From contig JAFXVT010000059.1 in NCBI GenBank assembly GCA_017534835.1, positions 1 through 44,331 on the forward strand: 44,331 nt of DNA, in the 5' to 3' direction. Position numbers and translations under genes: made by a program. This DNA is from Ruminococcus sp. GTDB taxonomy: Bacteria; Bacillota; Clostridia; Oscillospirales; Ruminococcaceae. This document shows positions 3,103-18,917 of the stretch, piece by piece. Within the stretch, counting starts at the first letter, position 1. Each line of letters starts with the position of its first letter. The notes under the pieces were generated by a model. The model saw only the letters and a program-made list of their open reading frames with translations, was not told the DNA's origin and ran no database searches.

Positions 3103-3140
3103 AGCGGCAAAGGAAAGCCTATTCGCTTTCCTTTGCCGCT
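3103..3140 (-). terminator. Terminator of the matrix/sortase operon
   Basis: A perfect 15-bp stem (AGCGGCAAAGGAAAG with its complement) and an 8-nt loop lie 8 nt past the last gene of the minus-strand operon. On the minus strand the stem is followed by GTTTTATC. It may also stop readthrough from cotJC. Confidence 0.85.
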
Positions 3141-3148
3141 ATTTACTG

Positions 3149-3796
3149 TTACGGTGCGTTCCACTGTCTTGTTGCAGCTGCGTCTCCCGAACTCTGTATC
3201 GCATCCGCAAGAACATCAAGCCTGAATACATAATCTTCAGTTAATGCATATGCAGCTGAATTCAGTTCAACGCTGTCTAATAACTGCGCTGTCAGCTTGC
3301 TGTTATCCAATGCCCCAGTGTAATAAAAACAACCATCTCCGGATGGATCAGCATTTGGATCACTGTAGCTCCAGCCGTTTTGCTCCCAACCAGATATCAT
3401 TTTCAGCGTAATTGTCTTGACGCCATCCGTATATGTGAAGGAATTGCCACTCTGCATCGGCTGACTGCTGAAATCGAAGACATCGCAAACATTGCCTTCG
3501 CTGTCATACCAAACCGGTATGAAGCTCGCTCTCAGAAGCTCGTCGGCAGATGTTCTTGTGTCCTTGATCTCAACGGGCTTGTCGACAGACTTTGTGTCAC
3601 TGTCAATGATGAGAGTCTTTGTGAGCTCCTCGCTGTGAATCGAACCCTCCTTGACCTCGATATCGACGCTGCCGGGAGCAAATCCATTCTTTCGCGTATC
3701 GCTGCTGTAAAGCACGGCAAATACGATAAGAGGAGCGATGAACAGCGCAGCAACGCCGCTGCTTATCAGCACGGCTCTTTTTTTCAGCTTCCTCAT
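3149..3796 (-). CDS. Small SipW-dependent (TasA/BsaA-like) surface protein
   Basis: This 215-aa protein starts MRKLKKRA, has a hydrophobic segment at about residues 8-32, and then SSDTRKNGFAPGSVDIEV. That pattern, in which the hydrophobic core runs into a D..xN.F..G.VDI strand, is the signature of SipW-processed TasA, camelysin and BsaA proteins. The tail resembles the end of the 430-aa protein of this operon (RLDVLADAIQSSGDAAAT compared with LTVVLDSIQTTPNEA), which supports a shared fold. The start has an AAAGGAGGAG ribosome site. It is the last gene of the operon, 17 nt after the giant adhesin. It is probably exported and could be a minor or tip component of a fibre. That role is inferred. 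Confidence 0.65.
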   Translation of the reverse strand: MRKLKKRAVLISSGVAALFIAPLIVFAVLYSSDTRKNGFAPGSVDIEVKEGSIHSEELTKTLIIDSDTKSVDKPVEIKDTRTSADELLRASFIPVWYDSEGNVCDVFDFSSQPMQSGNSFTYTDGVKTITLKMISGWEQNGWSYSDPNADPSGDGCFYYTGALDNSKLTAQLLDSVELNSAAYALTEDYVFRLDVLADAIQSSGDAAATRQWNAP

Positions 3797-3813
3797 TCAG
3801 CACTCCTCCTTTC

Positions 3814-6800
3814 TCAGTTGCGTTTGATGGTGTTCTCGGCGTATGCCTGCGAGCTCAGGTAAGCATATTCGGTCTCGGTATTGGTGAAGCTTGCAGCCGC
3901 TGCATTAGCCTTGTCTGTATCGGTTTCTGTAATACGGAAGGCAACGAACGGAGCATTTCCGTCCATAGCCGAGGTGCCCTGCTTTATGAGCTTTGTATTG
4001 TCTGTGTAGATATTTGAGCCGGTCCAGAAGTCATAGTCGGTATTCGACCATTCTGTGACTTCAGTGACCTTGTAAATACCCGTCTGTGTGACCTTGACGG
4101 TCTGTTCTCCGCTGTATATCGAAGCCGGGAATGAATAATCCTCACCGTCAGCGCAGATGACAGTCATCATATGCGTATCAGGATCATACTCATGCCCTGA
4201 AAATGCGGCCAGAGAACCGGGATAGCTTGTTTCAGCCGTTTCGCAGTTAAGTGTGACATAGAATGTATTCTGCACTGAATGCATATCAGTATCGTCGACG
4301 AGGAAGCGCTCGACCTTGAATACGAACTTCTGCTCGCTGTCGGAGCTGTCTCCGTGGATATACTTGTCAAGGAAGGCAAGCTTCCTTATGTTGAAATAGT
4401 AGTCGTGAGCTCCGGAGGTATTTGGCACGCTGATAGTGAACGAGCCGCCTGTTTTGGTAAGATAGCTGCTCTGTGAGCTGTATGCTGCCTGAAGTTCCGG
4501 CTTCAGGGAGGCATACTTGGGATTTCCGTTGCTGTCAGCCCCATTTGGCATACGGACGTCGCTTCCGATAGTGATATTGCCAAGCTCGTCGATACGGAAA
4601 AGAATGCTGTGCTGGATACCGGTGTAGTTAGCCGGCGGCTTTTTTTCTGTGAGGAAGTAGGTATCCGGCGGAAGTTTCTGCGTTATCAGCGGAATAACAC
4701 CGTCTGCTCCCGATCTGAGCTGCTTTATCACATCGTCGTCGTCGAACGGGTCATTGCAGTTCTTGCATTTCTTTGGCGGTTTTGTCGGATCATCAGGCAC
4801 CTCGCCGCAATGGTCGCACACATACAGATCCAGCGGGTAATAATCCTGGATAATGTAGCCCGCACTGCTGACTATACCGCGATAAAGCGCAAATTCCGCG
4901 CCCGGAAGTGAAGCGCCGGTACTGCTGTCTGTTTTGATTGCCCTAAGAGTGAACGGCTTGTTGTGTATATCAACGAAGCCCTTGTAGGTATGGGTCTCGT
5001 CGGTAGTGTCATGGTCTGCCCAGCCGGTGTCGTTTTCGTCAGTGACAATGGTAACAACGCCGTCCTCTCCTGAGCCTACGGTAAACTCGATTGGCTTGCT
5101 CATGCCGATATAGCCGTTTGGTGCGCCGACCTGCTCAAGAATAAATGTACCAGTGCCGATGTCGCCGTATAGTATCGCAACTATACCGTTGCTGCTCGAT
5201 GTGTACGTATCGATATCCTTCACTTTATATATCGGGTCGCCATTGTCATCTGTGCCTGTCTGTTCCCTGTGCCTGAGCTTGAAAGTACCGCCGGCGAGGG
5301 GATGTGTCTTTGTGGGGTCGTCCCAGTCGAACAGACGTATAGCTACACCGCCTTCGCGGATATTGGTTACGGTATCTCTTCTGGCATTATTGATAACGCC
5401 TTCGAGCTTGCCCTGATCGTAATGAACATTGTAGGTGTATTCTGTTGAAGTGCCGCCTGTCGGAACAGCGTTGATCTGCGTTGAGGTATCCGGATCGACA
5501 GGCTGGATGTTACTGTAGATGGGATTGCCGGTTACTGGGTCAACGGTCTTAACGGCTGTCACCTCGCGGACCTGATAGTCATTCAAGGACAGAGTCTCGT
5601 CATAGAGCGCTTCGTCATCAAAGAAGTATCGCTGAGTCAGCTTATCGTTCGTGATCTCTCTGACAGAGCCCTCCTTGAGCACACCGTTGACATATACTGC
5701 GATATAGATCGTATCGTGCATATCGGTATAATCCGCATCGCTCCATTTCTTTGTGACCTCTATACCGAAGCCGCGCTTGTTTGTTATGAGCATTGACGGA
5801 GATGATGCTTTGATGACAGTACCTGTGTTGATGTTATTTCCATCTTCTACCTGATACGAAGGCTGAGAAGTATCGTCGTCATTCACACAGGTATATCCCT
5901 CCAGCTCGTAAACATCGTAACCGATAGGATTGTCTTCCTCGCGCTCCTCTACCTTGAATCTCATGCCGTTGATAAGATCAGGCACCTTTACCTCATATCC
6001 GACCGGTATCTTTGATATCTGACCGTTCGGCGAGGTCTGGAAGGTGTACGGAGCTATCTCTTCATGTGAAAGGTTGTTTAAGTTGCTGAAAGGAGCTGAG
6101 GGATCCTCGACAAAACTGCCGGATTCCCATTTGCAAAGAAAGCCGTTACGAGATACAACGTAATACTTATGGATGTATGCAGCCTTCAATTCCCTTGTTT
6201 CCACGGTTTCCTGGCTCGGATTGCCATGCTCATCGGTAGTGTCGATAGTTTTAGCGACGGTCTGCTCAAGGAAAAGGCGGAAGTTGAATGTTGTCTGGTC
6301 GTCGTTTATTACGATACCGTTCCGTCCGACAAGCTTCTTTTTGATAGTCAGAGTCTTTACGGCGTTAGGATCGACTTTGTTAGTCAGCTGGACATTCGGA
6401 CGGTCATGAACGCTTGCCTCAACGATCTTGAAATCCTTGCCGCTGCCAATGTCGGTTCCCTGAGTGTTATCCGGATCTCCGTTGCATTCAACGGTTTCGT
6501 ATACCTCTCCGTTAAGGCCGCATTCCATGATATAATACTGTATAGTATCTGCCGGGAAGCTTATGGAAACGTCCTTTCCCGGAGTCAGGAAATAAACATC
6601 TTCGTAAATCTCATTATTAGACGGTGATCTGTACCTCGGATAATAGTTGGCTTCTCTTTTAGGATTCAGATAGTAAACGCCGAAGTTTTCAGTAGTTGGC
6701 GTCAGTCTGTACCACTGTACGCCGTTGCCGTCGCCCTTATCCTCCTGATACCAGATCTGGTAAGGATATTTGAGCAGTGAATAATCGATCTCGCCGGCAC

Positions 6801-9800
6801 CGCTGACGTCCTTGCTCATAAGAACGCTTCCGGGAGTTATATAGCTGAGGTTGAAGCGCATATGGAGGTTTGAAGCACCTGCGCCTCGCTCCATATAGAA
6901 TATCTTCATAGTATGCGTGGAATAGTCCTTGAAGATATCCTCACCGTCGTTGAAATACTTTGAAAGCTCAGTCGCAATTTCGCTTTCGCTCATTCCGCGT
7001 GCACGATAGTTTGCCTCGAATATTTCACGGAGCGTTTTGGTCTGTCTGACAATTCTGTTATTAACATTGTTGTCAACGGTGACGGCGCCGGTCGCAAAGT
7101 TGACACTGCCGTAAAGTGCGCTGTGGATACCGCCGAGGTCAATGATGAGCTCATCGTCGACATATAACCAGAAGTCGTCGTCTCCGGTGAATTCAAATAT
7201 GATATCGTGCCCCCAGGCGTCATGGCCGTTCGGTGTCTGAACGAATCCGGCTGAGAGCTCAGTGCCGTTATAGCAGTTGGGCTCATTACTTCCTGAATCA
7301 TTGCCCGAATACTGTAAGAGGTAAAGTGGTTCGCCTCTTCGCGGATCGTCTGGAGAAAGCGGATTTTTTAATGCATCATAAAGGTTTTCGGGATTATTCG
7401 GAGAGATATGATGGTGATTGGCATAAAGGGAGGCTTCATCTGTAGGAACAATAGTGTTATATGGGAAGAACTGTCCGTGCATATGAGTGACATTACCGGG
7501 CTTGTTATCCGTTGCGAGCTCTCTGTAGACTGTGAAAGCGTACATCGGCTCATTCGGAACGCCTTCTGAGGAAGCCTCGGTGGTGAGCTTGCCGTCCTTG
7601 TCAAGATAGAGCGGATTTCCTTCATCATCCTTCTGTCGAGCAAGTGTAGTACCGTCTGGTACTAATGTGGCAGTATTCTGACAGCTGTCGAACTCAAAAT
7701 AGCCAGAAGCCTCATAGGTGCTCTTGATAAACAGGTGATTTACAGCAACTCCGCCATAGTTGCCGCCTGGATTATCAAACAGATCTTTAAGACTTCTGCC
7801 GGGAACATAGCCGGATAAGTTGCTGCTCGCAAGAGCAGTCGTAGGATAGCCATCAGCTCCTAAGTTGGTAGAGAGCAGCCCCTGTTTCGGGGCAACATCT
7901 GCGCCGCCGCTGTTGTCCCCGAGAAAGTTGCTTTCCTTGGAACGGACAGAGAAGTCTACCATTCTCATGGAGATACCGTACTGCGTATTATCTATCGTCT
8001 CGACAGTGTGGAGTTTCGCGGCTTCGTCAGGTTCCGGCTCAGGCTCCATTATCGCGAAATAGAAGTCTGCGCTCTCGTCCTTCTGTTCAAGTTCGGTATC
8101 CTTTCGTGATAAGACCTTGCCGTGAGAGGGATCGGCATAGAACGCGAAGAATGCGTATTCGTCGTCGTCCCAGGATACGATCCTTGTGTAGTATTCTTCA
8201 TATCCCTCGACACGTCCTCTGAGGTTGATACCGACAGGCTCGTTCGAGAGGATCTTCCCGTCCTTCATCGGAACGAGATACTTTCTTGAATATGGGTTAT
8301 ACAGCTCATAATAGCCTGTTGAAGTGCCATCGGGATATTGGTAATCAGTAAAATCCCACAGGAGAGTGTTTATCTGGCTGCCCATCCACATTATGCTGTC
8401 GCCGCTCTCATAGCAGGGGACGAGCCTGCCGAGGTGGTCTATCGCATAAAAATCGTATCTTTTCTCTGATTCGTTCCAAACACGGGTGTATACGATTATC
8501 TGAGTGCCGTTTGTAACGACATATTCCTGCTTGGGCTCTCCAGTGTCAGGGTCGATGGACGTCGTTTTGTCAGAAACGCCGACCTTTGTGGCAGAATACG
8601 GGATGAAGTCGCCCTCAGTCAGCGCCGACTTCTGAACGAGATCCAGCCATGTACCTGAGGTGCCTGCCGTGAATGAGTTGTTGCTTAATGTTATGATTTT
8701 TCCGTTAGCAGAGAGCTGTATCTTGTGCGCGTTGGCATCGGCACCGGGCGTGACCTTCAATGGTGTCGCATCCTCAGCAGAATCGGTCAGCGAAACTCCG
8801 TCGGAGGTAAGAACGAGGTATTTCCCGTTGTCAGCCTCGAGAGTATAGTAGTCCTCGCTGGTGCTGTGGAAGGTCCACATGGTGATATCAGCATTATTGT
8901 CGACATAAAGCGTTCCGCTCGGGTCGATAGTGCTGCTTCTAATTTTCAGCTCGTGCGTCGAAATGGTGCTGTCGCCGGCGACCATGCCGTATCCGGTGGT
9001 CGTATTGTTAGCCGCATTGTGGTACATGAGACCGTAGGTCTTGCCGTCGAGGTCGAAGGCATCGTTTGGCACCACAACATCCTCGAAATACCAGAGATAT
9101 TCGATATTGTTGCCATTTCCAACCAGCAAATAATCGTTGCCAACTTTTTGAGATTTCCAAGTAGTTGAGCCTGATGTGTTTGGTACAGGTCTGAATTTAT
9201 CAGCATTAGTTGTTGAATTGAATATGGTAGCCTCGTCCTCTGATTCGACCAACTCGATTTTTGGACCGGTCTGCTTGATGTATTTCTGTCCGTCGTCAAG
9301 GCAGTAGATCTTATACTGCATACCGGAGGTGTTGACAAAATAGAACTTGGAGGCAACTTCTCTGTTGGAAACGAGGGACAGACCTGTATTGCCGCTAATG
9401 GTGCGTTCCTCAGCCTTTACCCATAATGAAGTGCTGCTGTTCTGGATATAGAGCCCAACTCCGTCATATGTCTTCAGCGTGGCTTCACCGCCATTATCAA
9501 TGATCCTTATTGCTTCTCCTTCAGGAATAGGTTCGAGAGCAGAGATATCCTCCGCCGGAACTATCTCGTAAACAGAGAAACCAGTCGCATAGAATCTGAC
9601 CGAGCCTTCAACAACATAGAGATCGAAGATCTGCTCTCTTGTGCCGTCGTCGAGGATATGCCAGAGCGTGATATCCTCTGTTATCACGGGGTCGTTTATC
9701 TCGACGAGGATAGGGTTCTCCTCGCCGGGCTGGTAGTCGTTTTCGCCGTCGGTTATTGTGATATCGTAGGCAGCGATACCGTCGTGCTCGTCGGAGACAT

Positions 9801-10041
9801 CGACAGCCGTAGCCTCGGCGCCCTCGGGCATGAGACCGTCGAGAGTAACGACCTGCTCCGCCTCCTCGCCGTTGGGATAGAGCTCGAGGCTCTGGAAGGT
9901 GAGGTCGTTCACTTCCGTTGCAGCCTCTGTTGAAGGCTCCGTTGTGACGATGTCCTCAGCGTAGACCGGCGAGACGCTCGATGAAGCCATAACTATGGCA
10001 GCCAAAAGACTGACTGCTTTTTTTGCTAATTTTTCAAACAT
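3814..10041 (-). CDS. Giant SpaA/fibro-slime surface adhesin, 2075 aa
   Basis: Secreted multi-domain protein. A Sec signal peptide ends near VYAED (about residue 29). An N-terminal beta-rich region covers about 30-180, and ricin/fascin-like segments (GLYIQNSSTSLWVKA) start at about 197. A fibro-slime-type module lies at about 945-990 (DDDFWLYVDDELIIDLGGIH). Then come prealbumin-like domains: KTLTIKKKLVGRNG (~1227), EVTKKWSDADY (~1425), IRLFDWDDPTKTH (~1570) and LRAIKTDSSTGASLPGAEFAL (~1705). The last contains a CDHC...CKNC insert at ~1739-1765. Such domains often carry Lys-Asn isopeptide bonds. No LPXTG-like signal or C-terminal membrane segment is visible, so anchoring must be indirect. An upstream in-frame ATG exists, but the chosen ATG has AAAGGAAG 8 nt before it and avoids overlapping the previous gene. 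Confidence 0.85.
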   Translation of the reverse strand: MFEKLAKKAVSLLAAIVMASSSVSPVYAEDIVTTEPSTEAATEVNDLTFQSLELYPNGEEAEQVVTLDGLMPEGAEATAVDVSDEHDGIAAYDITITDGENDYQPGEENPILVEINDPVITEDITLWHILDDGTREQIFDLYVVEGSVRFYATGFSVYEIVPAEDISALEPIPEGEAIRIIDNGGEATLKTYDGVGLYIQNSSTSLWVKAEERTISGNTGLSLVSNREVASKFYFVNTSGMQYKIYCLDDGQKYIKQTGPKIELVESEDEATIFNSTTNADKFRPVPNTSGSTTWKSQKVGNDYLLVGNGNNIEYLWYFEDVVVPNDAFDLDGKTYGLMYHNAANNTTTGYGMVAGDSTISTHELKIRSSTIDPSGTLYVDNNADITMWTFHSTSEDYYTLEADNGKYLVLTSDGVSLTDSAEDATPLKVTPGADANAHKIQLSANGKIITLSNNSFTAGTSGTWLDLVQKSALTEGDFIPYSATKVGVSDKTTSIDPDTGEPKQEYVVTNGTQIIVYTRVWNESEKRYDFYAIDHLGRLVPCYESGDSIMWMGSQINTLLWDFTDYQYPDGTSTGYYELYNPYSRKYLVPMKDGKILSNEPVGINLRGRVEGYEEYYTRIVSWDDDEYAFFAFYADPSHGKVLSRKDTELEQKDESADFYFAIMEPEPEPDEAAKLHTVETIDNTQYGISMRMVDFSVRSKESNFLGDNSGGADVAPKQGLLSTNLGADGYPTTALASSNLSGYVPGRSLKDLFDNPGGNYGGVAVNHLFIKSTYEASGYFEFDSCQNTATLVPDGTTLARQKDDEGNPLYLDKDGKLTTEASSEGVPNEPMYAFTVYRELATDNKPGNVTHMHGQFFPYNTIVPTDEASLYANHHHISPNNPENLYDALKNPLSPDDPRRGEPLYLLQYSGNDSGSNEPNCYNGTELSAGFVQTPNGHDAWGHDIIFEFTGDDDFWLYVDDELIIDLGGIHSALYGSVNFATGAVTVDNNVNNRIVRQTKTLREIFEANYRARGMSESEIATELSKYFNDGEDIFKDYSTHTMKIFYMERGAGASNLHMRFNLSYITPGSVLMSKDVSGAGEIDYSLLKYPYQIWYQEDKGDGNGVQWYRLTPTTENFGVYYLNPKREANYYPRYRSPSNNEIYEDVYFLTPGKDVSISFPADTIQYYIMECGLNGEVYETVECNGDPDNTQGTDIGSGKDFKIVEASVHDRPNVQLTNKVDPNAVKTLTIKKKLVGRNGIVINDDQTTFNFRLFLEQTVAKTIDTTDEHGNPSQETVETRELKAAYIHKYYVVSRNGFLCKWESGSFVEDPSAPFSNLNNLSHEEIAPYTFQTSPNGQISKIPVGYEVKVPDLINGMRFKVEEREEDNPIGYDVYELEGYTCVNDDDTSQPSYQVEDGNNINTGTVIKASSPSMLITNKRGFGIEVTKKWSDADYTDMHDTIYIAVYVNGVLKEGSVREITNDKLTQRYFFDDEALYDETLSLNDYQVREVTAVKTVDPVTGNPIYSNIQPVDPDTSTQINAVPTGGTSTEYTYNVHYDQGKLEGVINNARRDTVTNIREGGVAIRLFDWDDPTKTHPLAGGTFKLRHREQTGTDDNGDPIYKVKDIDTYTSSSNGIVAILYGDIGTGTFILEQVGAPNGYIGMSKPIEFTVGSGEDGVVTIVTDENDTGWADHDTTDETHTYKGFVDIHNKPFTLRAIKTDSSTGASLPGAEFALYRGIVSSAGYIIQDYYPLDLYVCDHCGEVPDDPTKPPKKCKNCNDPFDDDDVIKQLRSGADGVIPLITQKLPPDTYFLTEKKPPANYTGIQHSILFRIDELGNITIGSDVRMPNGADSNGNPKYASLKPELQAAYSSQSSYLTKTGGSFTISVPNTSGAHDYYFNIRKLAFLDKYIHGDSSDSEQKFVFKVERFLVDDTDMHSVQNTFYVTLNCETAETSYPGSLAAFSGHEYDPDTHMMTVICADGEDYSFPASIYSGEQTVKVTQTGIYKVTEVTEWSNTDYDFWTGSNIYTDNTKLIKQGTSAMDGNAPFVAFRITETDTDKANAAAASFTNTETEYAYLSSQAYAENTIKRN

Positions 10042-10075
10042 ATCGCCGCTTCCTTTCATAAAACTTCTGTGGCTG

Positions 10076-10855
10076 TCAGAACTCGCCCTTTGCCTGCTCA
10101 ACGGTCATGCCGTCGGGGTATTCATCTGAAAAGGCAGATACGGGGATTCCCTCTGCCGTGAGGTTGATCTCGAATTTCTGGTCGAATACGCCGAGATAAT
10201 CCTTCTTGAATATCGGGATATCGAGGTGGTCGAAGAGAGCCGTGGTGGACTCTCCGGGCTTTACAGCCTTCATTTTCTGTCCGGTGTCACCACCGGTATA
10301 GTAAAAATAGTACACGGTCTTGTCGGTATCGGTATCAGTGACCGTATCCATGATGAAATTATCATTGTTCGTGAAGCTTCCGTTCAGAAACTCCGTGCCA
10401 TCCGCGAGCTTTATAGCGCTGAGGATATTGTTCAGCCGCCTTTCCGAGCGCTCGGCGTTCTTGGAATTCGTATCAGGATCATAATTGTCCTTGAAATTGT
10501 CGATATATTCCTGAGTTTTGCCTGTTTCATCGAAATCCTTGAGGTCTACAGTCATTTTCAGCCTTATGAACACGTCCACTTGTCCGTTGTTCACTCCGGA
10601 CGGGTCTTTTTCAATTTTCATACCAGGCTCCATAGCCTTTGCTTTATCATGTCCGAGGCTGTCCCAGCCTGGCTCCTGTATCGCTACAGAGCCACTCTTG
10701 CCTTCAAGCCTGTTGGAAACGGTGTCCTCGCTGTGAAAGTAGGCAAATATCCCTGACAGCAGCATTACATAAACTATAAAAGCAGCAGACAGAACGGTTA
10801 TACGCTGTCTTTTTCTTCCGCTCAGCGCTTTTTTTGCAAATGCTTTGAGCTGCAT
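10076..10855 (-). CDS. SipW-dependent BsaA/TasA-like protein
   Basis: This 259-aa protein has a basic N-terminus (SGRKRQR), a hydrophobic stretch at about 20-40 and then AYFHSEDTVSNRLEG, the SipW-type signal. The following EPGMKIEKDPSGVNNGQVDVFIRL matches, position by position, the equivalent part of the 430-aa BsaA-like protein at 12944-14236. In TasA/BsaA proteins this strand precedes polymerisation into biofilm fibres. The ATG at 10855 was chosen because AAAGGAGG lies 8 nt before it; an ATG six codons earlier has no such site. It lies between the SipW-type peptidase (14 nt away) and the giant adhesin (34 nt away). A role as matrix fibre subunit or adaptor is inferred. Confidence 0.75.
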   Translation of the reverse strand: MQLKAFAKKALSGRKRQRITVLSAAFIVYVMLLSGIFAYFHSEDTVSNRLEGKSGSVAIQEPGWDSLGHDKAKAMEPGMKIEKDPSGVNNGQVDVFIRLKMTVDLKDFDETGKTQEYIDNFKDNYDPDTNSKNAERSERRLNNILSAIKLADGTEFLNGSFTNNDNFIMDTVTDTDTDKTVYYFYYTGGDTGQKMKAVKPGESTTALFDHLDIPIFKKDYLGVFDQKFEINLTAEGIPVSAFSDEYPDGMTVEQAKGEF

Positions 10856-10869
10856 AGATATTCCTCCTT

Positions 10870-11358
10870 TCATTCAGACTTATAGAAACAACCGAGAAGT
10901 AACAGCAGAACGCCCCCCAAAGCTATAGCTATCTTTCCCGCGAGCGACTGTGCAAAGCCGAGCAGTCTGCCGCCGTATGGCAGTGCAAACAGCGTTTTTC
11001 CGATGTATTTATCGCGCGTTACTGGGTCAGGGTCCGGGGAATCGTTCATATCCCCCTTTGTGATGATACCGTCAGATGTTATCTCTATTGCCCGGTGAGT
11101 GACACGGATATCGGCAACTCTGAAAGAAATCACATCACCGGCTGTAATTTTGTCATAGCTGCTGTAGGTGCTGACAAAACAGACACTCCCAACAGAAAAA
11201 AGATCATCCATCGAGCCTGACCGGACCTGATACATACGTATGCCACAGATATGCAGTATCGCAAGTATCACGCCTATGACTATCACAGCCGTTGAAATGA
11301 TCTGATAGGCTAGCCTGAGCAGCCAGCTGATATGCTGTTTTACGTCATGCTCTCTCAT
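10870..11358 (-). CDS. sipW: SipW-type (ER-like) signal peptidase I, short form
   Basis: This 162-aa membrane protein cleaves signal peptides of exported proteins. It has a transmembrane segment at about residues 18-42, the catalytic-serine motif SGSM (Ser49), the VTHRA motif with a His (His88) in place of the bacterial Lys, KGDMNDSPDP (about 101-110), and a second hydrophobic segment near the C-terminus. The Ser-His-Asp layout is that of the archaeal/ER branch, which in Firmicutes includes SipW. It sits immediately before a SipW-type substrate. A second peptidase of the same branch begins the operon, so the two may have different substrates. Confidence 0.85.
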   Translation of the reverse strand: MREHDVKQHISWLLRLAYQIISTAVIVIGVILAILHICGIRMYQVRSGSMDDLFSVGSVCFVSTYSSYDKITAGDVISFRVADIRVTHRAIEITSDGIITKGDMNDSPDPDPVTRDKYIGKTLFALPYGGRLLGFAQSLAGKIAIALGGVLLLLLGCFYKSE

Positions 11359-11393
11359 ACTATCAGTTCTTTATTGCAAATTTACAGTCCTTG

Positions 11394-12155
11394 TCAGTCA
11401 ATGATTCCGACAAGGATACCTCTAGCGTCATCGAATTCGTAGGTACAGGTCGAAAGCAGCAGGAGGTGCGGATCCTCGCCCAAGTCCTCTTTTTTTATAT
11501 TCTGAGTGTGCTTAGCCTCATCAAAGATGTAGCTGATATAGTCGTTTTTGTCCTGCGGAACAGCAAACACAGCACGGTACGCAGGAGCAGTGCTGTAGGT
11601 GTTGAGGTACGCAAAGAACCGTACTCTATGCACGCCATCCTTCAGAGTCAACGAACCCTCGGGGTGCTGCTGCATGAAGTCAGCGTCCGCAAACAGCGAG
11701 ATATCGGCGAACATACGACGATTTGTGATATGGTGACCGTAGACTATCGAATTGAAACCGGAAAAGTCTCTTGTGCACCTGTAATCCAAAAACGGACAGC
11801 CCAAATCATAGTTGTACTGTCCGTTCACGCCGTTATGAAGATAAAAATCGTTATCCTTCCCCTGAACCACAGGGAGGTCAATATTAGTATCGGGAATATA
11901 TATCCAACCGACAGTATCATCATTTACATCTTCACATGACGTAAGCAGATTTTCGGTATTATCAGAGCCTTTTGACACAACCTGCAGCGGTTTTATTCTG
12001 TCGATGATATCTTGCTGCTCTTCAAAAGCCTCATCAAGCTGTTTGTCTGGAAGGATATTGTCTGTGTAGTATCTGTAACCGCAGAACGCTCCGGTAATGG
12101 CAAACACGAGCAGAACAGCTGCCGTAGTTATTTTACGTTTCATCAGTCTTTTCAT
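11394..12155 (-). CDS. srtB: Class B sortase
   Basis: This 253-aa transpeptidase has an N-terminal membrane anchor (about residues 8-26) and the sortase catalytic set: His141 in YGHHITN, Cys237 in LLSTCTYEF, and Arg245 in DARGILVG. The TxxTCxYEF context and the DDTVGWIYIPDTNIDLPVVQ segment identify class B. Class B sortases of clostridia, such as C. difficile SrtB, accept (S/N/P)PXTG signals; the gene just upstream encodes a protein with PPKTG. It may attach that protein to the wall or join fibre subunits. Its start overlaps the end of the substrate gene; ATG at 12155 or 12143 are both possible, neither with a strong ribosome site. Confidence 0.88.
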   Translation of the reverse strand: MKRLMKRKITTAAVLLVFAITGAFCGYRYYTDNILPDKQLDEAFEEQQDIIDRIKPLQVVSKGSDNTENLLTSCEDVNDDTVGWIYIPDTNIDLPVVQGKDNDFYLHNGVNGQYNYDLGCPFLDYRCTRDFSGFNSIVYGHHITNRRMFADISLFADADFMQQHPEGSLTLKDGVHRVRFFAYLNTYSTAPAYRAVFAVPQDKNDYISYIFDEAKHTQNIKKEDLGEDPHLLLLSTCTYEFDDARGILVGIID

Positions 12156-12900
12156 TCTGTTTCTTCTTGAGGAACACAAGCACCAGCATTCCACTGGTCA
12201 TGACAGCGAGCACCGCGATTGCGAACAGCCATACGTTATTTCCAACCGAAAACAGACCGGTCTTCGGGGGAACATAGTCCTCGTCCACAGCGGCATAGAA
12301 AATCCACTTGAACTCTATCTCGCCCTGCACATATCCGGATTCCTGTGATCCCACCAGCACATGCTCGCCGTTGATGTCCACAAGCCTGTGACCGTTATCG
12401 GCTCCGACCAGTACATCGAGGTCGTTCCAGATCACTGAGCATTTGAGTGTGTGGGAATCACCCGGCTGATAGAGACCGCAGTCATAGACCTGCTGGGTGA
12501 GGTCGATATTGCCGTCACCGGTGACAGTGCCTTTGTAGAACTCCTGACCGTCGAGCCAGAAGGTACATTCGCATCCTTTTTCGAGATCAATCTCGCCATC
12601 TTTGTAGAGAGGTTCAACATAGAAATAGATGTGGTACGCCTTGTCGTCACGCAGATTCATGAGCTGGACGTCCTTTGTGTATGTGACGCCGTAGTCCATA
12701 TTCTCCACACGGAAGAAGTATTCTCCTGTCGAACTACTGACGGCATTGCCATCAGAGTCCATAGCAGTCAGCTTCTCCGGAAGTCCCTTTACCGCACCTT
12801 CGGGTAAAGCGACCTCCGCATAAGCTGCCATCGGGCAGCAGTTTGCAGAAAGAAACAGGAGACAGCTTAACAAGGCGGTCAATAACTTCTTTGCACGCAT
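12133..12900 (-). CDS. Surface protein with PPKTG sortase signal
   Basis: This 255-aa secreted protein has a signal peptide (residues 1-28, ending MAAYAE), a beta-rich ectodomain with two or three Cys, and a C-terminal wall-sorting signal: VPPKTG, a hydrophobic helix (about 226-247) and the basic tail KKKQNEK. PPKTG suits the class B sortase encoded directly downstream, whose start lies inside this gene. The ectodomain segment DVQLMNLRDDKAYHIYFYV is reminiscent of accessory proteins in sortase-SipW loci, but I recognise no named family. It could be the wall anchor for polymers of the BsaA-like proteins. That is inference. Confidence 0.8.
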   Translation of the reverse strand: MRAKKLLTALLSCLLFLSANCCPMAAYAEVALPEGAVKGLPEKLTAMDSDGNAVSSSTGEYFFRVENMDYGVTYTKDVQLMNLRDDKAYHIYFYVEPLYKDGEIDLEKGCECTFWLDGQEFYKGTVTGDGNIDLTQQVYDCGLYQPGDSHTLKCSVIWNDLDVLVGADNGHRLVDINGEHVLVGSQESGYVQGEIEFKWIFYAAVDEDYVPPKTGLFSVGNNVWLFAIAVLAVMTSGMLVLVFLKKKQNEKTDET

Positions 12901-12943
12901 TGTGCTGTCCCCTTTCCGTAAGATTATCGTGTTATATCAGCTA

Positions 12944-14236
12944 TTATGTCCAGCTTACAGTCGTGCCGTCATAACCTGCTGTCGCACCCCAAGAAGCACC
13001 ATTCACACCAACAACTATGCTGGTATTGGACTTAGCTTCATTAGGAGTTGTCTGAATACTGTCGAGAACCACGGTCAGATCATAAACCAGTTCTTTATAA
13101 GCATCCTGTGTGACATCCTTGTTGAGCGTCACGCTGTCAACAAGCTTCTCTGTTGTTGCGCCAGGTGCAAGGAGCTTGTTATAGAAGAAATACCCCGCAT
13201 CATTTGTGCCGTTAATCTTTGTGCTTGTAGCTGCTTTGTATGTCCAGTTTGTGCTCCAGCCGGATGCAAGGTTAATGTCAATCACAACATCGTCAAGCGC
13301 CTTGTTTGCAGAAGAATCATCATCACCTACATAAGTCAGGCGAATGATAGCAGCATCGGAAGCACCGGCAGTTGCAGCTGTACCATCAGACTTCACCCAT
13401 GTAATATTGAATGCAGGTGTTGTACCAGCGTTTGCAATTGTTACTTCCTTAGTTGCAGCAAGCTTAACATTGTCAAGTGCTCCGGCAGCCAGCGTCACAA
13501 CGCCAGTATCACTTTCTGTGATTGCATCCGAAGCAAGATTTGCGATATAAACCGTGCCTGGCTCATGCTCAAGCTCATAGAACTTTTTATTCGTTGCATC
13601 ATAGTAGTAACCGGAATACTTCACACCGTCGGTAACATTGCGCTTGAAGATATACAAACCGCTGCCATACTGCTGTGCATAGGTCTTTGCCGGATCTGCA
13701 ACAGTCTTCGTCGTGTCAGGATTAAACTGCCCCGAGCCGGAATAATCAGTATTTGTAGAAGAATCGTCGCCCGAGCGAACGTTCCAAGCGTCAGAAGGCG
13801 AAACTGCCTGACCGCCTGCGATAACGAGCGTACCGCCAGCCTGAAGGAGAGTCACCTCGTTGGCCGTGCTTCCAGAAGCAGCTGTTTTCAGCTCCACCAA
13901 TTTGGTTTTATCAGCACTGGCAAATCCAGACGGAGCTACACCGGTGTCCTTAACAGTCAGAGTTGCGTCATACAACAGACCGAGACGAACGAACGCATCC
14001 ACATTACCTGTATTAACAGCGGAAACATCCTTATTGATTTCCTGTCCAGGTGTCCACTGCTCAGGCGGAGTAAAATCCTCGGCAATCGCTACATTATAGT
14101 CCGCGCTTGCCGTCAGACGGTTCGTAACCTCATCCTTGCTTGTGAACCACGCAAAGGTCGATCCTGCGACAGTAACGGCTGCGACAGCTATAGCGCCAAC
14201 AAGAATTCTGCGATCCTTCTTATTGTTTTTTCTCAT
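12944..14236 (-). CDS. BsaA-family SipW-dependent biofilm matrix protein
   Basis: This 430-aa protein begins MRKNNKKDRRILVGAIAV, followed by a hydrophobic core and GSTFAWFTSKDEVTNRLTA, a textbook SipW-type signal. It continues TPGQEINKDVSAVNTGNVDAFVRLGLL. This is the BsaA/TasA pattern of Clostridium perfringens and Bacillus matrix fibre proteins. The mature part is rich in Ala, Thr and Asp and nearly free of Cys. Its AAAGGAGTG ribosome site overlaps the last codons of the upstream peptidase gene, giving coupled synthesis of peptidase and substrate. It is the likely major subunit because it is promoter-proximal. Subunit rank is inferred from position. Confidence 0.85.
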   Translation of the reverse strand: MRKNNKKDRRILVGAIAVAAVTVAGSTFAWFTSKDEVTNRLTASADYNVAIAEDFTPPEQWTPGQEINKDVSAVNTGNVDAFVRLGLLYDATLTVKDTGVAPSGFASADKTKLVELKTAASGSTANEVTLLQAGGTLVIAGGQAVSPSDAWNVRSGDDSSTNTDYSGSGQFNPDTTKTVADPAKTYAQQYGSGLYIFKRNVTDGVKYSGYYYDATNKKFYELEHEPGTVYIANLASDAITESDTGVVTLAAGALDNVKLAATKEVTIANAGTTPAFNITWVKSDGTAATAGASDAAIIRLTYVGDDDSSANKALDDVVIDINLASGWSTNWTYKAATSTKINGTNDAGYFFYNKLLAPGATTEKLVDSVTLNKDVTQDAYKELVYDLTVVLDSIQTTPNEAKSNTSIVVGVNGASWGATAGYDGTTVSWT

Positions 14237-14240
14237 AAAA

Positions 14241-14903
14241 TCACTCCTTTATATTCTCTGAGGTTTCCTTTTCTGGGATTGTCCCCTGATTTTTTTCGGA
14301 AATCTCACCTATATCTTCAACAGCATTGCTTTCGCCCTCGCTCCTATCAAAATAGAGTTGCATAAGGTAGAAGAATACTGCAATAAGCACAATTATCGGT
14401 ATTATGAAATACCATCTTAGCTGTATGAAACGAATAATGTAGCCGAGAAACGGCACATGGAACTTTACTACGCCGATGACGCGCTTTTCGTCGATAAGGA
14501 ACGAGTCCTCGGCATCATTGGCGTCGCCCTTTGTCCGGAAGCATGTAACGCCGGTTCCCTGATAATCTTCTAATTTCTGTGTGACACGGTGGGTCAAATA
14601 AGCCTCGCTGTCCTCTGATGGGTTGAAAGTAATGATGTCATTCTCACTGATATCATTTGCCCCGCAAAGCTTAACGAAAACCATATCCCCCGGACTGTAT
14701 ACAGGCTCCATTGAGGGAGTCAGTACAGTGTAATAGCGGAATCCGAACAGTGATTTGCTTGGGTTCTTGCTTGAGGCAAACAGCAACGCACCGATAATAA
14801 TAGCGGCAGCCAGTATGTAAACCATGACAGAGCGAACGATTGAAAACACCTTATATCCAGCGCTTTCGGGTAAAGCCGACTGTTCAGTTTGTTCATTTTT
14901 CAT
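14241..14903 (-). CDS. sipW: SipW-type signal peptidase I, long form
   Basis: This 220-aa membrane protein is the first gene of the operon. It has a transmembrane segment at about residues 24-44, TPSMEP with catalytic Ser64, LTHRV with His105, TKGDANDAED (about 124-133), a second hydrophobic segment at about 163-187 and a charged C-terminal tail. His in place of the bacterial catalytic Lys puts it in the ER/SipW branch. It should process the three SipW-type substrates encoded downstream. It differs from the short peptidase at 10870-11358 by its longer N- and C-terminal tails. Confidence 0.88.
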   Translation of the reverse strand: MKNEQTEQSALPESAGYKVFSIVRSVMVYILAAAIIIGALLFASSKNPSKSLFGFRYYTVLTPSMEPVYSPGDMVFVKLCGANDISENDIITFNPSEDSEAYLTHRVTQKLEDYQGTGVTCFRTKGDANDAEDSFLIDEKRVIGVVKFHVPFLGYIIRFIQLRWYFIIPIIVLIAVFFYLMQLYFDRSEGESNAVEDIGEISEKNQGTIPEKETSENIKE

Positions 14904-14943
14904 CTCTATAAATTACCACCGCCATTCTCACCCGAGGATTATT

Positions 14944-15152
14944 ATTCAATCTTACCATACAGTATAACACTATTTTTACGAATTGTCAACACTTTTTTCA
15001 CCGTAATACTACCATTCTGAGCGATTTTAGTGCTTTCATCCTTCAATCCGCAGAGTGCCAACCGTTCTATTGCATCAATGAACTCTTTGCCTGTATATGC
15101 ATCTGTACTAACGGAATTAGCAAAAACATCATAGCCTAATGCCGATAATTGT
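14944..15152 (-). pseudogene. Possible gene remnant overlapping the operon promoter
   Basis: One minus-strand frame stays open for about 66 codons and reads as protein-like sequence, with pieces such as LSALGYDVFANSVSTDAYTG and FIDAIERLALCGLKDES. It has no start codon and begins right after a stop. I do not recognise the family. It may be a decayed 3' end whose AT-rich tail now supplies the sigma-A promoter, or it may be chance. Confidence 0.25.
14961..14989 (-). promoter_or_regulatory. Strong sigma-A promoter of the matrix/sortase operon
   Basis: On the minus strand the -35 TTGACA (14984-14989) is a perfect consensus. The spacer is exactly 17 nt and the -10 is TATACT (14961-14966). It lies about 58 nt before the first gene. 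No other strong promoter was seen within the eight-gene run, so the whole cluster may be one transcript. Confidence 0.88.
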
Positions 15153-15510
15153 TTATTTTAGCCCAAATTGTATACTGAAATGGTACCAATTTTACCATGA
15201 GACTGGTGGAATCTAAGAAGATCAGGAATAATGATATTTCCAACCGCATCTCATTATAAACCGGTATATACCTATTATAATGCTCCCGCTGTTTTCGCCC
15301 CTTGGTGTTTTAGGCAACTGCCAAATTTTAGCATAATATGAACAACTAATCGAAGCAAGCACTTCAAAGTTTAATCTTTTACTATCAGTCCAATGTGAAA
15401 TTTTTCTTCGTCAGCAAAAAAGCAGCTCAAGCAACCACTTGTAAAATATACGCAAGAATATACCGTTTGTAATTTCGCGTTTTTCTTCAAAAAATTTTAT
15501 AAATACTCAT

Positions 15511-15661
15511 ATAAAAAATAGGAGTAAAAGAGCCCACTTTTAACAGTACTGTCACCATATTTTCACATATAAACTTAAATCATTGTTAGAAATGACAATC
15601 AAGTCAGAATTACAACACGCATTTATCAAGGAGTTACCCAAAATCAACTCCTATTTTTTAT
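15511..15661. repeat. AT-rich segment with 15-bp perfect terminal inverted repeats
   Basis: ATAAAAAATAGGAGT at 15511-15525 is the exact reverse complement of 15647-15661. Inside the right end, AGGAGTT (15629-15635) pairs with AACTCCT (15646-15652), followed by ATTTTTTA, so the right end is also a terminator-like hairpin. The segment could be a tiny MITE or a bidirectional terminator. The surrounding gap from 15153 to 15716 is very AT-rich and holds no recognisable gene. Confidence 0.4.
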
Positions 15662-15662
15662 G

Positions 15663-16088
15663 TCTGTTTTCACAGAAGACTTTTTGATATTATAACCTAC
15701 ACAGGAGCGATGATCAGTGGTTAAGTGCGCCGTTCACGTCACGCAAGGCGGAACAGAAGGAACGGTACTGCGCAAGGGCTATGGCAAAAAGATTGCTAAC
15801 TTGCTACCAAATGGGTTCAGGCGGCGATATATCTTTACTTCCGCTGATAGCAAAAGCGGTAGTTGTGAGTTAGGCGACAGCAGTTTGCTAACACCGAAAA
15901 AGCTCTGTATCAGTTGGTTTGACCGCGCTTGGTAGTTTGTTAGTAAAATCATAGATGCAGGACGCCGTGCCGCGAGTTTGTGCGCGTTTTGTGCCGTTCT
16001 GCGGTGAAAGGAGGGATAACTACACCACACGGGCTCCCGGAGCAATCCTGAGGGCAAATAGAGCGAGTTTGGAAGAAAGGATGTGAAG
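15663..16088 (+). other. Leader region of the recombinase cassette
   Basis: No convincing gene. Base composition changes from AT-rich to about even here. A 72-codon frame (15717-15935, GTG start with AGGAG about 9 nt before it) could encode a small basic protein, but nothing in it is recognisable. The region may instead be a structured leader or the left end of the mobile cassette. Confidence 0.3.
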
Positions 16089-16433
16089 ATGACTGAAAAC
16101 AACATTTACAACGAGCCGTACTGCGTCAAGGACGGCTGTCTCTATGAGACGGTCGAGAGAAAAGGCTTCATCGGTTTCGAGGACGACAACTTCTACTATC
16201 TCATCATGAATGCGGCGTTGTCTGAGGTTGTGAAGCTGTCGAAGGAAATGGGTGAGAGCTTCTCCATTGGCAAGAACAGTCTGATACAACAGCTGGTCGA
16301 TGACGGTATCATGGTCGTGAAGGGCAAGCGCAACACAACGACTGTCCGTGTGACCGATGACCGTCAGATGAGCGTGGCGGTACTGGATAAGTCGAAGATG
16401 TTCACTGAGGCGGGAAATGCCGAAATCAGCTGA
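16089..16433 (+). CDS. Unknown small protein of recombinase cassette
   Basis: A 114-aa cytoplasmic protein I do not recognise. The first part (YNEPYCVKDGCLYETVERKG) looks like a short beta-rich module. The second (GKNSLIQQLVDDGIMVVKGKR) resembles a winged-helix end, so DNA binding is possible. A GTG two codons earlier is also in frame, but the ATG at 16089 has GAAAGG at the better distance of 8 nt. It precedes a possible DNA-binding gene and a serine recombinase on the same strand. Confidence 0.6.
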   Translation: MTENNIYNEPYCVKDGCLYETVERKGFIGFEDDNFYYLIMNAALSEVVKLSKEMGESFSIGKNSLIQQLVDDGIMVVKGKRNTTTVRVTDDRQMSVAVLDKSKMFTEAGNAEIS

Positions 16434-16577
16434 AAAGAGGTGGATTTTCGATTAGCAGGTTAAAGGCTGGCGTCAAAGCGCCCGCCGTTCCACATCGGAC
16501 GGGCAAAGCCCGCCGATATTCCGCGGTTTATGAGAATATACAAAAGGAGGCAAAATAGAAAAAGGAGGAAAAAGCTG
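16434..16577 (+). other. Hairpin-rich spacer in recombinase cassette
   Basis: Several short inverted repeats follow one another: GGCG/CGCC near 16468-16483, GCCCGCCG with CGGACGGGC around 16480-16507, and CGGGC/GCCCG near 16500-16513. No T-run follows, so this is either a structured regulatory RNA segment or a recombination-related site. It is GC-rich compared with its flanks. Confidence 0.35.
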
Positions 16578-17057
16578 ATGTCAAAAAATACGAAAAACAA
16601 GAAGAACGCCAATACTTCGGCGAATTATGAAGGAGTCTACGCTCCGAAAATACGCTTTCCTCTGTACGTTTATCCCGAGACTATGAAAACGGTGGAGAGC
16701 ATATATAAGTCGGATAATTGCAGCACAAAAACTGAGTTCATGGAGAAGGCTATTCGCTTCTACTGCGCGCACCTTATGCAGAACAAGCCTGAGCTCATCG
16801 AGTACCTTGCGCCTCAGATAGCGCACATCGTTGAAGGCTATATCATGGGAACTGAGCAAAGGTTGTCCCGTGCGATTTTCAAGCTCGCTGTTGAAGTCGG
16901 TGCGCAGACGCATATGCTTGCGGCAATAAATGATATCGAGGACAGCACGCTCTTCAAGCTCCGTGAAATGGTAACAGACGAGGTGCGCCGCATAAATGGT
17001 ATCATAAACTTTGAGAGCGCTGTCAGATATCAGCGCAGTGAGGAAGATCAAAATTGA
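16578..17057 (+). CDS. Possible ribbon-helix-helix-like protein of recombinase cassette
   Basis: This 159-aa protein has a Lys/Asn-rich N-terminus, then IRFPLYVYPETMKTVESIYK and STKTEFMEKAIRFYCAHLM (about residues 28-75). A strand followed by two helices in this arrangement recalls ribbon-helix-helix DNA-binding proteins. The remainder is helical. The start at 16578 has AAAGGAGG about 8 nt upstream; an earlier in-frame ATG runs through the ribosome site and is unlikely. It may regulate or assist the downstream serine recombinase. Confidence 0.6.
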   Translation: MSKNTKNKKNANTSANYEGVYAPKIRFPLYVYPETMKTVESIYKSDNCSTKTEFMEKAIRFYCAHLMQNKPELIEYLAPQIAHIVEGYIMGTEQRLSRAIFKLAVEVGAQTHMLAAINDIEDSTLFKLREMVTDEVRRINGIINFESAVRYQRSEEDQN

Positions 17058-17372: not shown

Positions 17373-18917
17373 TTGGCTGCGGAGAGTTTTCCGCAGCCGG
17401 CAGCTCTGAAAGGAGCTGATATTATAATAGCGATATATGCAAGGCAGTCTGTTGACCGTGCAGACAGTATATCTATCGAGCAGCAGATAGAGCTCTGCCA
17501 ATACGAAACAAGAGGTGAACCGTTCAAGGAATACACCGATAAGGGTTACAGCGGAAAGGACACGAACCGTCCGCAGTTCACACAGATGATGAGCGACATA
17601 AGAGACGGATTTATCCACGCGGTAGTTGTCTACAAGCTCGACCGCATAAGCCGTTCGATTCTCGACTTCTCGAACATGATGGAGGTCTTCAGCAGGTACA
17701 ACGTGCAGTTCATTTCGGCGACGGAAAAATTCGATACCTCCTCGCCTATGGGCAACGCCATGCTGAACATCTGCATCGTCTTTGCTCAGCTTGAACGCGA
17801 AACGATACAGAAGCGAGTCGCCGATGCTTACTATTCGCGTAGCCAGAAAAGCTTTTTCATGGGCGGTCCTATCCCCTACGGATTCAGAAAAGTCCCGACA
17901 GTCATCGACGGCATACACACCTCGATGTACGAGCCTGTCCCCAACGAAGCAGAAGTCGTGAAGCTGATTTTCAATATGTACTCTCAGCCGAACACCTCCT
18001 ACGGCGACGTGATAGACCGTCTGAACGAGCTCGGGATAAAAAAGCGCGGCGGAAACTGGGCTCGTCCGCGGATAAGGGAAATTCTCGTCAATCCGATATA
18101 CGTCAGAGCTGACCTCGATGTCTACAACTTCTTCAACGAAAACGGTGCAGAGATAGCTAACCCGCCTGCTGATTTCATCGGCGAGAATGGCTGTTACAGC
18201 TACAAAAGCAAGAACGAAAAGAAGAAGAACTCCACGACTGTCGAGGGCAATCAGATAGTCCTCGCACCGCACAAGGGCATAGTTGATTCCGCAGTATGGC
18301 TGAAATGCCGCATGAAATGTATGTCAAAGAAGCAGATGATACCCTCGCAGAAGGCGAAAAACTCATGGCTCAGCGGAAAGATAAAATGCGGCGAGTGCGG
18401 ATACGCGCTCTTGGCGAAAAGCTTCAGCGGACGCCCACACCGCTATCTGCTCTGCTCAAACAGGCTGAATTCCAAAGCCTGCGTCGGAGCGGGAACGCTC
18501 TACACCGAGGAAGTCGAGCAGCTCGTTTACAGCGAGATGCGAAAAAAGCTCGCACAGTTCCGCACGCTTTCGCCTTCAAGAAGCGATATGCCGTGTACAG
18601 AGCAGAACGAGCTTGAGATTGAGCTTGCGGAGATAGACAATGAGATAAAAGCCCTGCTTGAAAAGGTACGGAACTCGGACAACGCGCTTTTCCGCTACAT
18701 AAACGAGCGCATAAACACTCTCGACAAGCGCAAAGCCGAAATAAGCGAGCGTATCCGTGAGCTCAGTCTGAAAAAGGACATCCCCGCTGACGAGATAGAC
18801 CTTCACCTTAAAATATGGGACGAGCTGAGCTTCGACGACAAGCGTCAGGTCGCAGATACACTCATCAGAGTCGTATACGCGACAGACCGGAAAATAGCCA
18901 TACAATGGCGGTTTTAG
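17373..18917 (+). CDS. Large serine recombinase
   Basis: This 514-aa site-specific recombinase has a resolvase domain (about 18-160) with catalytic Ser in IYARQSVDRADSISIEQQ, KLDRISRS, and the E helix LERETIQKRV. A recombinase domain follows (about 170-290, PYGFRKV...RPRIREILVNPIYV). Then comes a zinc ribbon with CGECGYALLA and a matching C-terminal Cys pair (about 335-375), and a coiled-coil segment (about 410-470). This is the family that moves integrative elements and phages. The start is uncertain. TTG at 17373 has AAAGGTGG 7 nt upstream, but a perfect GGCTGCGG hairpin and a second AAAGGAG site lie downstream, after which only ATT or ATA codons are in frame. Confidence 0.85.
   Translation: MAAESFPQPAALKGADIIIAIYARQSVDRADSISIEQQIELCQYETRGEPFKEYTDKGYSGKDTNRPQFTQMMSDIRDGFIHAVVVYKLDRISRSILDFSNMMEVFSRYNVQFISATEKFDTSSPMGNAMLNICIVFAQLERETIQKRVADAYYSRSQKSFFMGGPIPYGFRKVPTVIDGIHTSMYEPVPNEAEVVKLIFNMYSQPNTSYGDVIDRLNELGIKKRGGNWARPRIREILVNPIYVRADLDVYNFFNENGAEIANPPADFIGENGCYSYKSKNEKKKNSTTVEGNQIVLAPHKGIVDSAVWLKCRMKCMSKKQMIPSQKAKNSWLSGKIKCGECGYALLAKSFSGRPHRYLLCSNRLNSKACVGAGTLYTEEVEQLVYSEMRKKLAQFRTLSPSRSDMPCTEQNELEIELAEIDNEIKALLEKVRNSDNALFRYINERINTLDKRKAEISERIRELSLKKDIPADEIDLHLKIWDELSFDDKRQVADTLIRVVYATDRKIAIQWRF
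17375..17398 (+). promoter_or_regulatory. Hairpin at the recombinase start
   Basis: GGCTGCGG pairs perfectly with CCGCAGCC over an 8-nt loop containing TTTT. It falls between two candidate ribosome sites of the recombinase gene and could limit translation. Confidence 0.45.

Follow-up and report, generated by a model that had tools for sequence, protein, structure and literature searches.

Plant-fibre adhesion by Ruminococcus flavefaciens and R. albus is credited, in the available portions of the literature, to cellulosomes, CttA, enzymes bearing carbohydrate-binding modules and type IV pili (PMC3672088, PMC8092306). The BsaA protein of Clostridium perfringens self-polymerises when made in Escherichia coli, and deletion of the neighbouring srtB gene left BsaA polymers and pellicles unaltered, according to the available excerpts of the published account (PMC7395162). 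SipW-type peptidases, BsaA-type subunits, a sortase and a giant adhesin are encoded together on contig JAFXVT010000059.1 of Ruminococcus sp. (GCA_017534835.1), which constitutes the whole window analysed here (44,331 nt) and is one entire contig of a 2.56 Mb genome in 67 contigs. We suggest that this eight-gene operon specifies a wall-rooted surface fibre of the TasA/BsaA type that displays the giant adhesin, with a probability of roughly 0.55. This reading draws on what was computed here, namely the operon, its recurrence, the motifs, the TasA-like fold predicted for the anchor, the pairing of the C-terminal domain of the giant with BsaA3 and the exchange of alleles. A ruminococcal version of the system is undescribed in the titles and abstract openings of the papers listed from a full-text literature collection that excludes most subscription journals, which is weak evidence.

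The original prediction, made from the DNA of the window alone, proposed eight co-directional genes under one near-consensus promoter, and the genes, their spacing and the promoter site are all present, confirming the operon. The genes lie on the minus strand (14903-3149) in the order sipWa, bsaA1, the PPKTG protein gene, srtB, sipWb, bsaA2, the giant and bsaA3, with adjacent genes overlapping or separated by gaps of at most 43 bases. The promoter (TTGACA-17-TATACT with an extended -10 TG; 14961..14989, minus strand; consensus score 11/12) is the top scorer among 24 sites found when both strands were scanned, against a chance expectation of 20.0 (sd 4.2). Because the site total is near this expectation, the weaker promoter-like sites were given no weight, and internal promoters were rejected on the same basis. 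Counting the window, 24/38 sequences have an 11-12/12 site upstream of the first sipW or near its called start. A terminator-like hairpin of 16 pairs (3103..3140) follows 8 bases past the last gene; it was reported by the scan as a plus-strand feature, and its tail, GTTTTAT, was read on the minus strand.

With 187/247 genomes of the family matching at 1e-15, the sortase proved too general as a marker of the locus, and the PPKTG protein was used instead. A scan of species genomes with this protein matched 97 relatives, the best 80 of which were kept and represent 79 loci. By title these belong to Ruminococcus, Oscillospiraceae and other Clostridia, many of them of rumen origin, and include R. 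flavefaciens FD-1, YAD2003, MA2007, Y1, SAb67 and 007c, as well as R. albus 8. Among the best 80 of 97, the closest named anchors are a 99% match from a yak-rumen Ruminococcus metagenome-assembled genome (MAG) and a 96% match from the isolate Anaerotruncus sp. MC2020. Neighbourhoods were counted only in loci with room on the relevant side. The sipW-bsaA1 pair immediately precedes the anchor gene in 43/59 loci and srtB immediately follows it in 53/75, while the exact eight-gene order is present in 9/46 loci with room on both sides (L091, L092, L096, L097, L098, L099, L116, L119 and L141), R. flavefaciens FD-1 included; some of the 37 non-exact loci end inside the giant, where bsaA3 is unseeable. 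Leaving aside the near relative L091, the proteins of the exact-order loci share 27-62% identity with those of the window; their anchors reach 54-80%, and two of these loci have a BsaA1 at 73-80%. The predicted unit of SipW/BsaA, sortase and adhesin genes is therefore operon-like and stays together in relatives, the exact order recurring despite such divergence; at 9/46 loci, and with several loci showing no giant, the co-occurrence of the eight genes is nevertheless poor enough to count in part against the original prediction. R. albus 8 (L113) harbors the operon core with a different giant, a SpaA protein of ~3000 amino acids, while bsaA3 is placed first in L150, L152 and L155. The anchor is rare in the family sample (7/247 genomes); the order-wide scan recovered it in 5/394 genomes, two being that of the window and a genus mate and one a weak partial match, and the class-wide scan in 4/341, namely the window's genome and three partial matches. 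A second bsaA1-anchor-srtB set, with its anchor broken into three open frames, is located downstream of the complete operon of R. flavefaciens FD-1 (L160, on the contig of L097).

Two SipW-type peptidases were predicted, and both candidates, SipW-like signal peptidases of the endoplasmic reticulum type, surpass the TIGR02228 cut-off of 51.85, sipWa (gene 1; 14241..14903, minus strand; 220 amino acids) at 80 bits and sipWb (gene 5; 10870..11358, minus strand; 162 amino acids) at 78.7. Against the Bacillus SipW equivalog NF046067 they score 81.5 and 73.6, far below the cut-off of 190. The alignment of SipW proteins shows Ser and Asp conserved in 83/83 proteins and His in 82/83. The three substrates proposed for these peptidases fared unequally. 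BsaA1 (gene 2; 12944..14236, minus strand; 430 amino acids) passes both the BsaA model (TIGR04090; 89.7 bits, cut-off 60) and the SipW-signal model (TIGR04088; 19.5, cut-off 19), while BsaA2 (gene 6; 10076..10855, minus strand; 259 amino acids; ATG at 10855, preceded by GGAGG) and BsaA3 (gene 8; 3149..3796, minus strand; 215 amino acids) remain below TIGR04090, at 36.9 and 28.6. The SipW-type signal is recognized at 0.001 in 14/16 BsaA1, 1/16 BsaA2 and 0/14 BsaA3 proteins. Nevertheless, 13/16 BsaA2 relatives match at 0.001 although the TIGR04090 score of the window's own protein is below cut-off, and the BsaA3 profile is linked to that of BsaA1 with an hhalign probability of 97%. A sequence search of BsaA1 against solved structures returned no match. 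In 14 control genomes, TIGR04090 gave sub-cut-off matches in Bacillus subtilis and Methanosarcina acetivorans.

The PPKTG protein (gene 3; 12133..12900, minus strand) contains an ordinary (Sec) secretion signal, a conserved N-terminal arm, a predicted TasA-like sandwich and a C-terminal sorting signal. The TG sorting motif is found in 72/74 relatives, a match lying within the membrane helix not being counted. No Pfam or NCBIfam family reaches its cut-off on this protein. Its predicted fold, compared by a VIA-align run on Foldseek candidates, is closest to TasA with a middling score. At the sequence level, links between the anchor profile and the BsaA1 and BsaA2 profiles are not significant, and the 11 weak matches among solved structures do not include TasA, the best (0.0056) being a racemase. 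We read the PPKTG protein as the putative sortase-fixed base of a TasA/BsaA-type fibre; the earlier proposal that the fibre is anchored through it is plausible.

The sortase encoded downstream (gene 4; 11394..12158, minus strand; 254 amino acids) passes the general Pfam model PF04203 (30, cut-off 26.6). Its assignment to class B held in that this is the best-matching class, but the TIGR03064 score (141.2) is below the cut-off of 153.75, so that it is best described as class-B-like. The catalytic residues are conserved throughout (His in 61/61, Cys in 59/59 and Arg in 59/59 sequences, two rows being gapped at Cys and Arg). This enzyme had been envisaged as joining the BsaA-like polymer. The operon sortase adjoins the subunit genes and the giant contains SpaA/CnaB domains, which are usual in sortase pili, such that a covalent pilus, with its BsaA-type subunits polymerised and its giant attached by the sortase, could be envisaged. 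However, a sorting-type C terminus occurs in 0/62 sequences (0/16 BsaA1, 0/16 BsaA2 and 0/14 BsaA3 proteins, or 0/46 of the BsaA type, and 0/16 giants), the class C sortase model scores only 18.1 bits (cut-off 160), and in C. perfringens, as far as the excerpts extend, srtB is dispensable and BsaA polymerises alone (PMC7395162). A covalent pilus is highly improbable. With no sorting signals on either the giant or the fibre subunits, the sortase is hardly a polymer joiner, and the role first ascribed to it is not supported; judged from sequence and by analogy, it more likely serves the PPKTG anchor alone.

The giant (gene 7; 3814..10044, minus strand; ATG at 10044) was correctly predicted as a SpaA/fibro-slime protein (TIGR02148: 50.7, cut-off 45; SpaA: 69.9, cut-off 23.1), its length being corrected to 2076 amino acids. 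The fibro-slime domain spans residues 948-993, the PA14 and Cna_B models score slightly under their cut-offs, and the protein has an ordinary signal peptide and no sorting motif. A zinc-ribbon-like CxxC...CxxC insert in the SpaA part (residues ~1740-1765; NF045720: 11.7 bits, cut-off 45) is missing from 13 other aligned giants. The C-terminal domain (residues 1868-2076; 3814..4443, minus strand) is CnaB-like, with pilin and adhesin domains as its closest folds (predicted local distance difference test score, pLDDT: 79.4; below 50 for domain residues 194-209), and these last ~200 residues terminate in a conserved, apparently unfolded tail. This domain is found in 7/247 family genomes, and BsaA3 is present in all seven. 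The profiles used for this co-occurrence were, however, built mostly from anchor loci, and because of this bias our confidence in the mounted-adhesin fibre was lowered slightly. Alternatively, the giant may coat the fibre lengthwise as a sheath instead of being placed at the tip. Its length could span many subunits, and the first position of bsaA3 in L150, L152 and L155 indicates that gene position is no pointer to a tip role; no sequence feature favours a lateral mount, however, and only the terminal tail is both conserved and binding-like, making a sheath improbable.

Giant homologues are found in 29/247 family genomes, the window's counted, and the PPKTG protein in only three of these; the giant is thus not tied to the eight-gene locus. 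Giants without an anchor adjoin small BsaA-type genes in L077, L079, L080, L084, L085 and L185, and in four of these six loci (L079, L084, L085 and L185) sipW is also nearby. The predominance of giants without an anchor is consistent with an operon that makes two products, a loosely held or released BsaA matrix fibre and an unmounted adhesin, where the sortase would anchor only the PPKTG protein, itself perhaps a holder of the adhesin or an independent factor. The C. perfringens BsaA polymers, in the available excerpts, are likewise mostly extracellular and not tightly wall-bound (PMC7395162). We nevertheless consider two separate products unlikely, as giants recurrently lie near sipW and small BsaA-type genes even where the anchor is absent, and the C-terminal domain of the giant pairs with bsaA3.

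The fibre with a mounted adhesin would further appear to have exchangeable outer parts. The sipWa, anchor, sortase and sipWb proteins of the window, L090 and L091 are 97-99% identical, while the BsaA1 proteins of L090 and L091 share only 53% and 42% identity with that of the window and the giant of L091 46%; L090 ends inside the giant, which was hence compared for L091 only. At the DNA level, identity of 92-96% extends to ~13985, resumes at 12959 (L090) or 12916 (L091) and continues until ~9560, with no reported match of at least 60 bases across the BsaA1 body and 77.6% identity to L091 over 4102-3075. The first ~40 residues of BsaA1 travel with the chassis and the body does not. Relative to L090 and L091, the bodies of bsaA1 (13985-12959) and the giant (9559-4102) are replaced with sharp borders, and the alleles match those of other species.

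Pair comparisons and the BsaA1 and machinery trees included the window and 36 loci with the sipW-bsaA1-anchor-srtB order and a BsaA1 of at least 300 amino acids, L102 being excluded from the trees as it derives from the same genome as L103; all trees were quick trees. Sortases are at least 85% identical in 6/666 locus pairs, one of which derives from a single genome. In the remaining five pairs, forming three clusters, BsaA1 is 42-53% identical (median over all pairs: 44%). Conversely, the window shares 80% BsaA1 identity with L096 and L148 but 57-58% sortase identity, and the BsaA1 of L091 shares 82% with that of L116. The machinery tree supports window+L090+L091 and L133+L141 at 100% each. 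The BsaA1-body tree rejects the former (approximately unbiased (AU) test, p 8e-56) and, weakly, the latter (p 0.03), while the machinery tree rejects window+L096+L148 (p 1e-22). Similarly, grouping the window with L091 is rejected by the tree of giants (p 0.004, or 7e-5 for the last 260 residues). That tree joins L091 to L096 (86% identity) and L097 to L141, partners that are far apart in the machinery tree. Because these trees conflict with the machinery tree, the sequences indicate that BsaA1 and the giant, the outer parts, are swapped between species, each independently of the other. It follows that the two need not touch, a further point in favour of two separate products. Chimeric assembly is an alternative explanation where MAGs are concerned; it does not apply to the isolates MC2020, MA2007 and FD-1. 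Copying of BsaA1 variants from spare cassettes is not supported: TIGR04090 has four matches in the window's genome, every one within the eight-gene operon, and no silent bsaA1 copy.

In the wall-rooted fibre that we favour, the two SipW-type peptidases would trim the BsaA-type subunits so that an N-terminal strand becomes free, while the PPKTG protein would be exported by the ordinary Sec route and then fixed to the wall by the sortase of the operon. The conserved N-terminal arm of this protein may act as the initial donor strand, a part that TapA plays for TasA, and BsaA1 would polymerise on it by strand exchange without the sortase. BsaA2 and BsaA3 would be minor subunits, with BsaA3 taking the conserved C-terminal tail of the giant and mounting it, probably at the tip. 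More tentatively, and with somewhat less than even confidence, we propose a hybrid fibre of rumen ruminococci, combining a donor-strand shaft, a sortase-fixed base with a TasA fold and a tail-held, lectin-like giant adhesin, in which shaft subunit and adhesin are independently swapped cassettes, like serotype antigens. Such swapping perhaps serves phage escape or a change of the surface bound, and the exchange of alleles hints at selection on whatever contacts the fibre from outside. Attachment to plant fibre is plausible, given that a fibro-slime domain is present and that many relatives come from the rumen. With a complete copy in R. flavefaciens FD-1 and a core in R. albus 8, the operon would represent an additional candidate appendage testable in isolates, and suggests a means of rooting a TasA-type fibre in the Gram-positive wall.

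Several other features can be observed in the window. A stretch of ~1.5 kb just upstream of the promoter region (15372-16858) is absent in L090, where its flanks are joined (95.5% and 96.5% identity). A large serine recombinase with Resolvase, Recombinase and zinc-ribbon domains is encoded at 17373-18917, ~2.4 kb from the operon promoter, and a GH16 protein at 37803-39884 matches the dockerin model weakly, at 20.7 bits (cut-off 22.9).

Among described systems, the operon resembles sortase pili with CnaB/SpaA tip adhesins in the SpaA/CnaB domains of its giant and the presence of a sortase, but its subunits are without sorting motifs and its sortase is closest to class B, not class C. With tapA-sipW-tasA of B. 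subtilis it shares a SipW peptidase, a TasA-type subunit and a partner with a predicted TasA-like fold that may donate the first strand. To our knowledge, TapA of B. subtilis is without a wall-sorting motif and its operon includes neither a sortase nor a giant adhesin. Fibro-slime proteins of Fibrobacter succinogenes likewise have the fibro-slime domain, here above cut-off, and many relatives of the present locus are from the rumen; unlike the ruminococci, F. succinogenes is, in the available portions of the sources, Gram-negative with outer-membrane vesicles (PMC8092306, PMC8865330). In the C. perfringens sipW-bsaABCRSD locus, as described in the available excerpts, a SipW-type peptidase gene similarly precedes a BsaA-family subunit, with secreted partner genes and srtB nearby, the latter on the 5′ flank of the bsa operon and dispensable; that operon also contains the two-component genes bsaRS (PMC7395162), whereas family-model scans found no kinase or response-regulator match among the eight ruminococcal genes. 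Beyond the C. perfringens system, the ruminococcal operon adds a TasA-like protein with a sorting motif, a second sipW, two extra BsaA-type genes and the giant.

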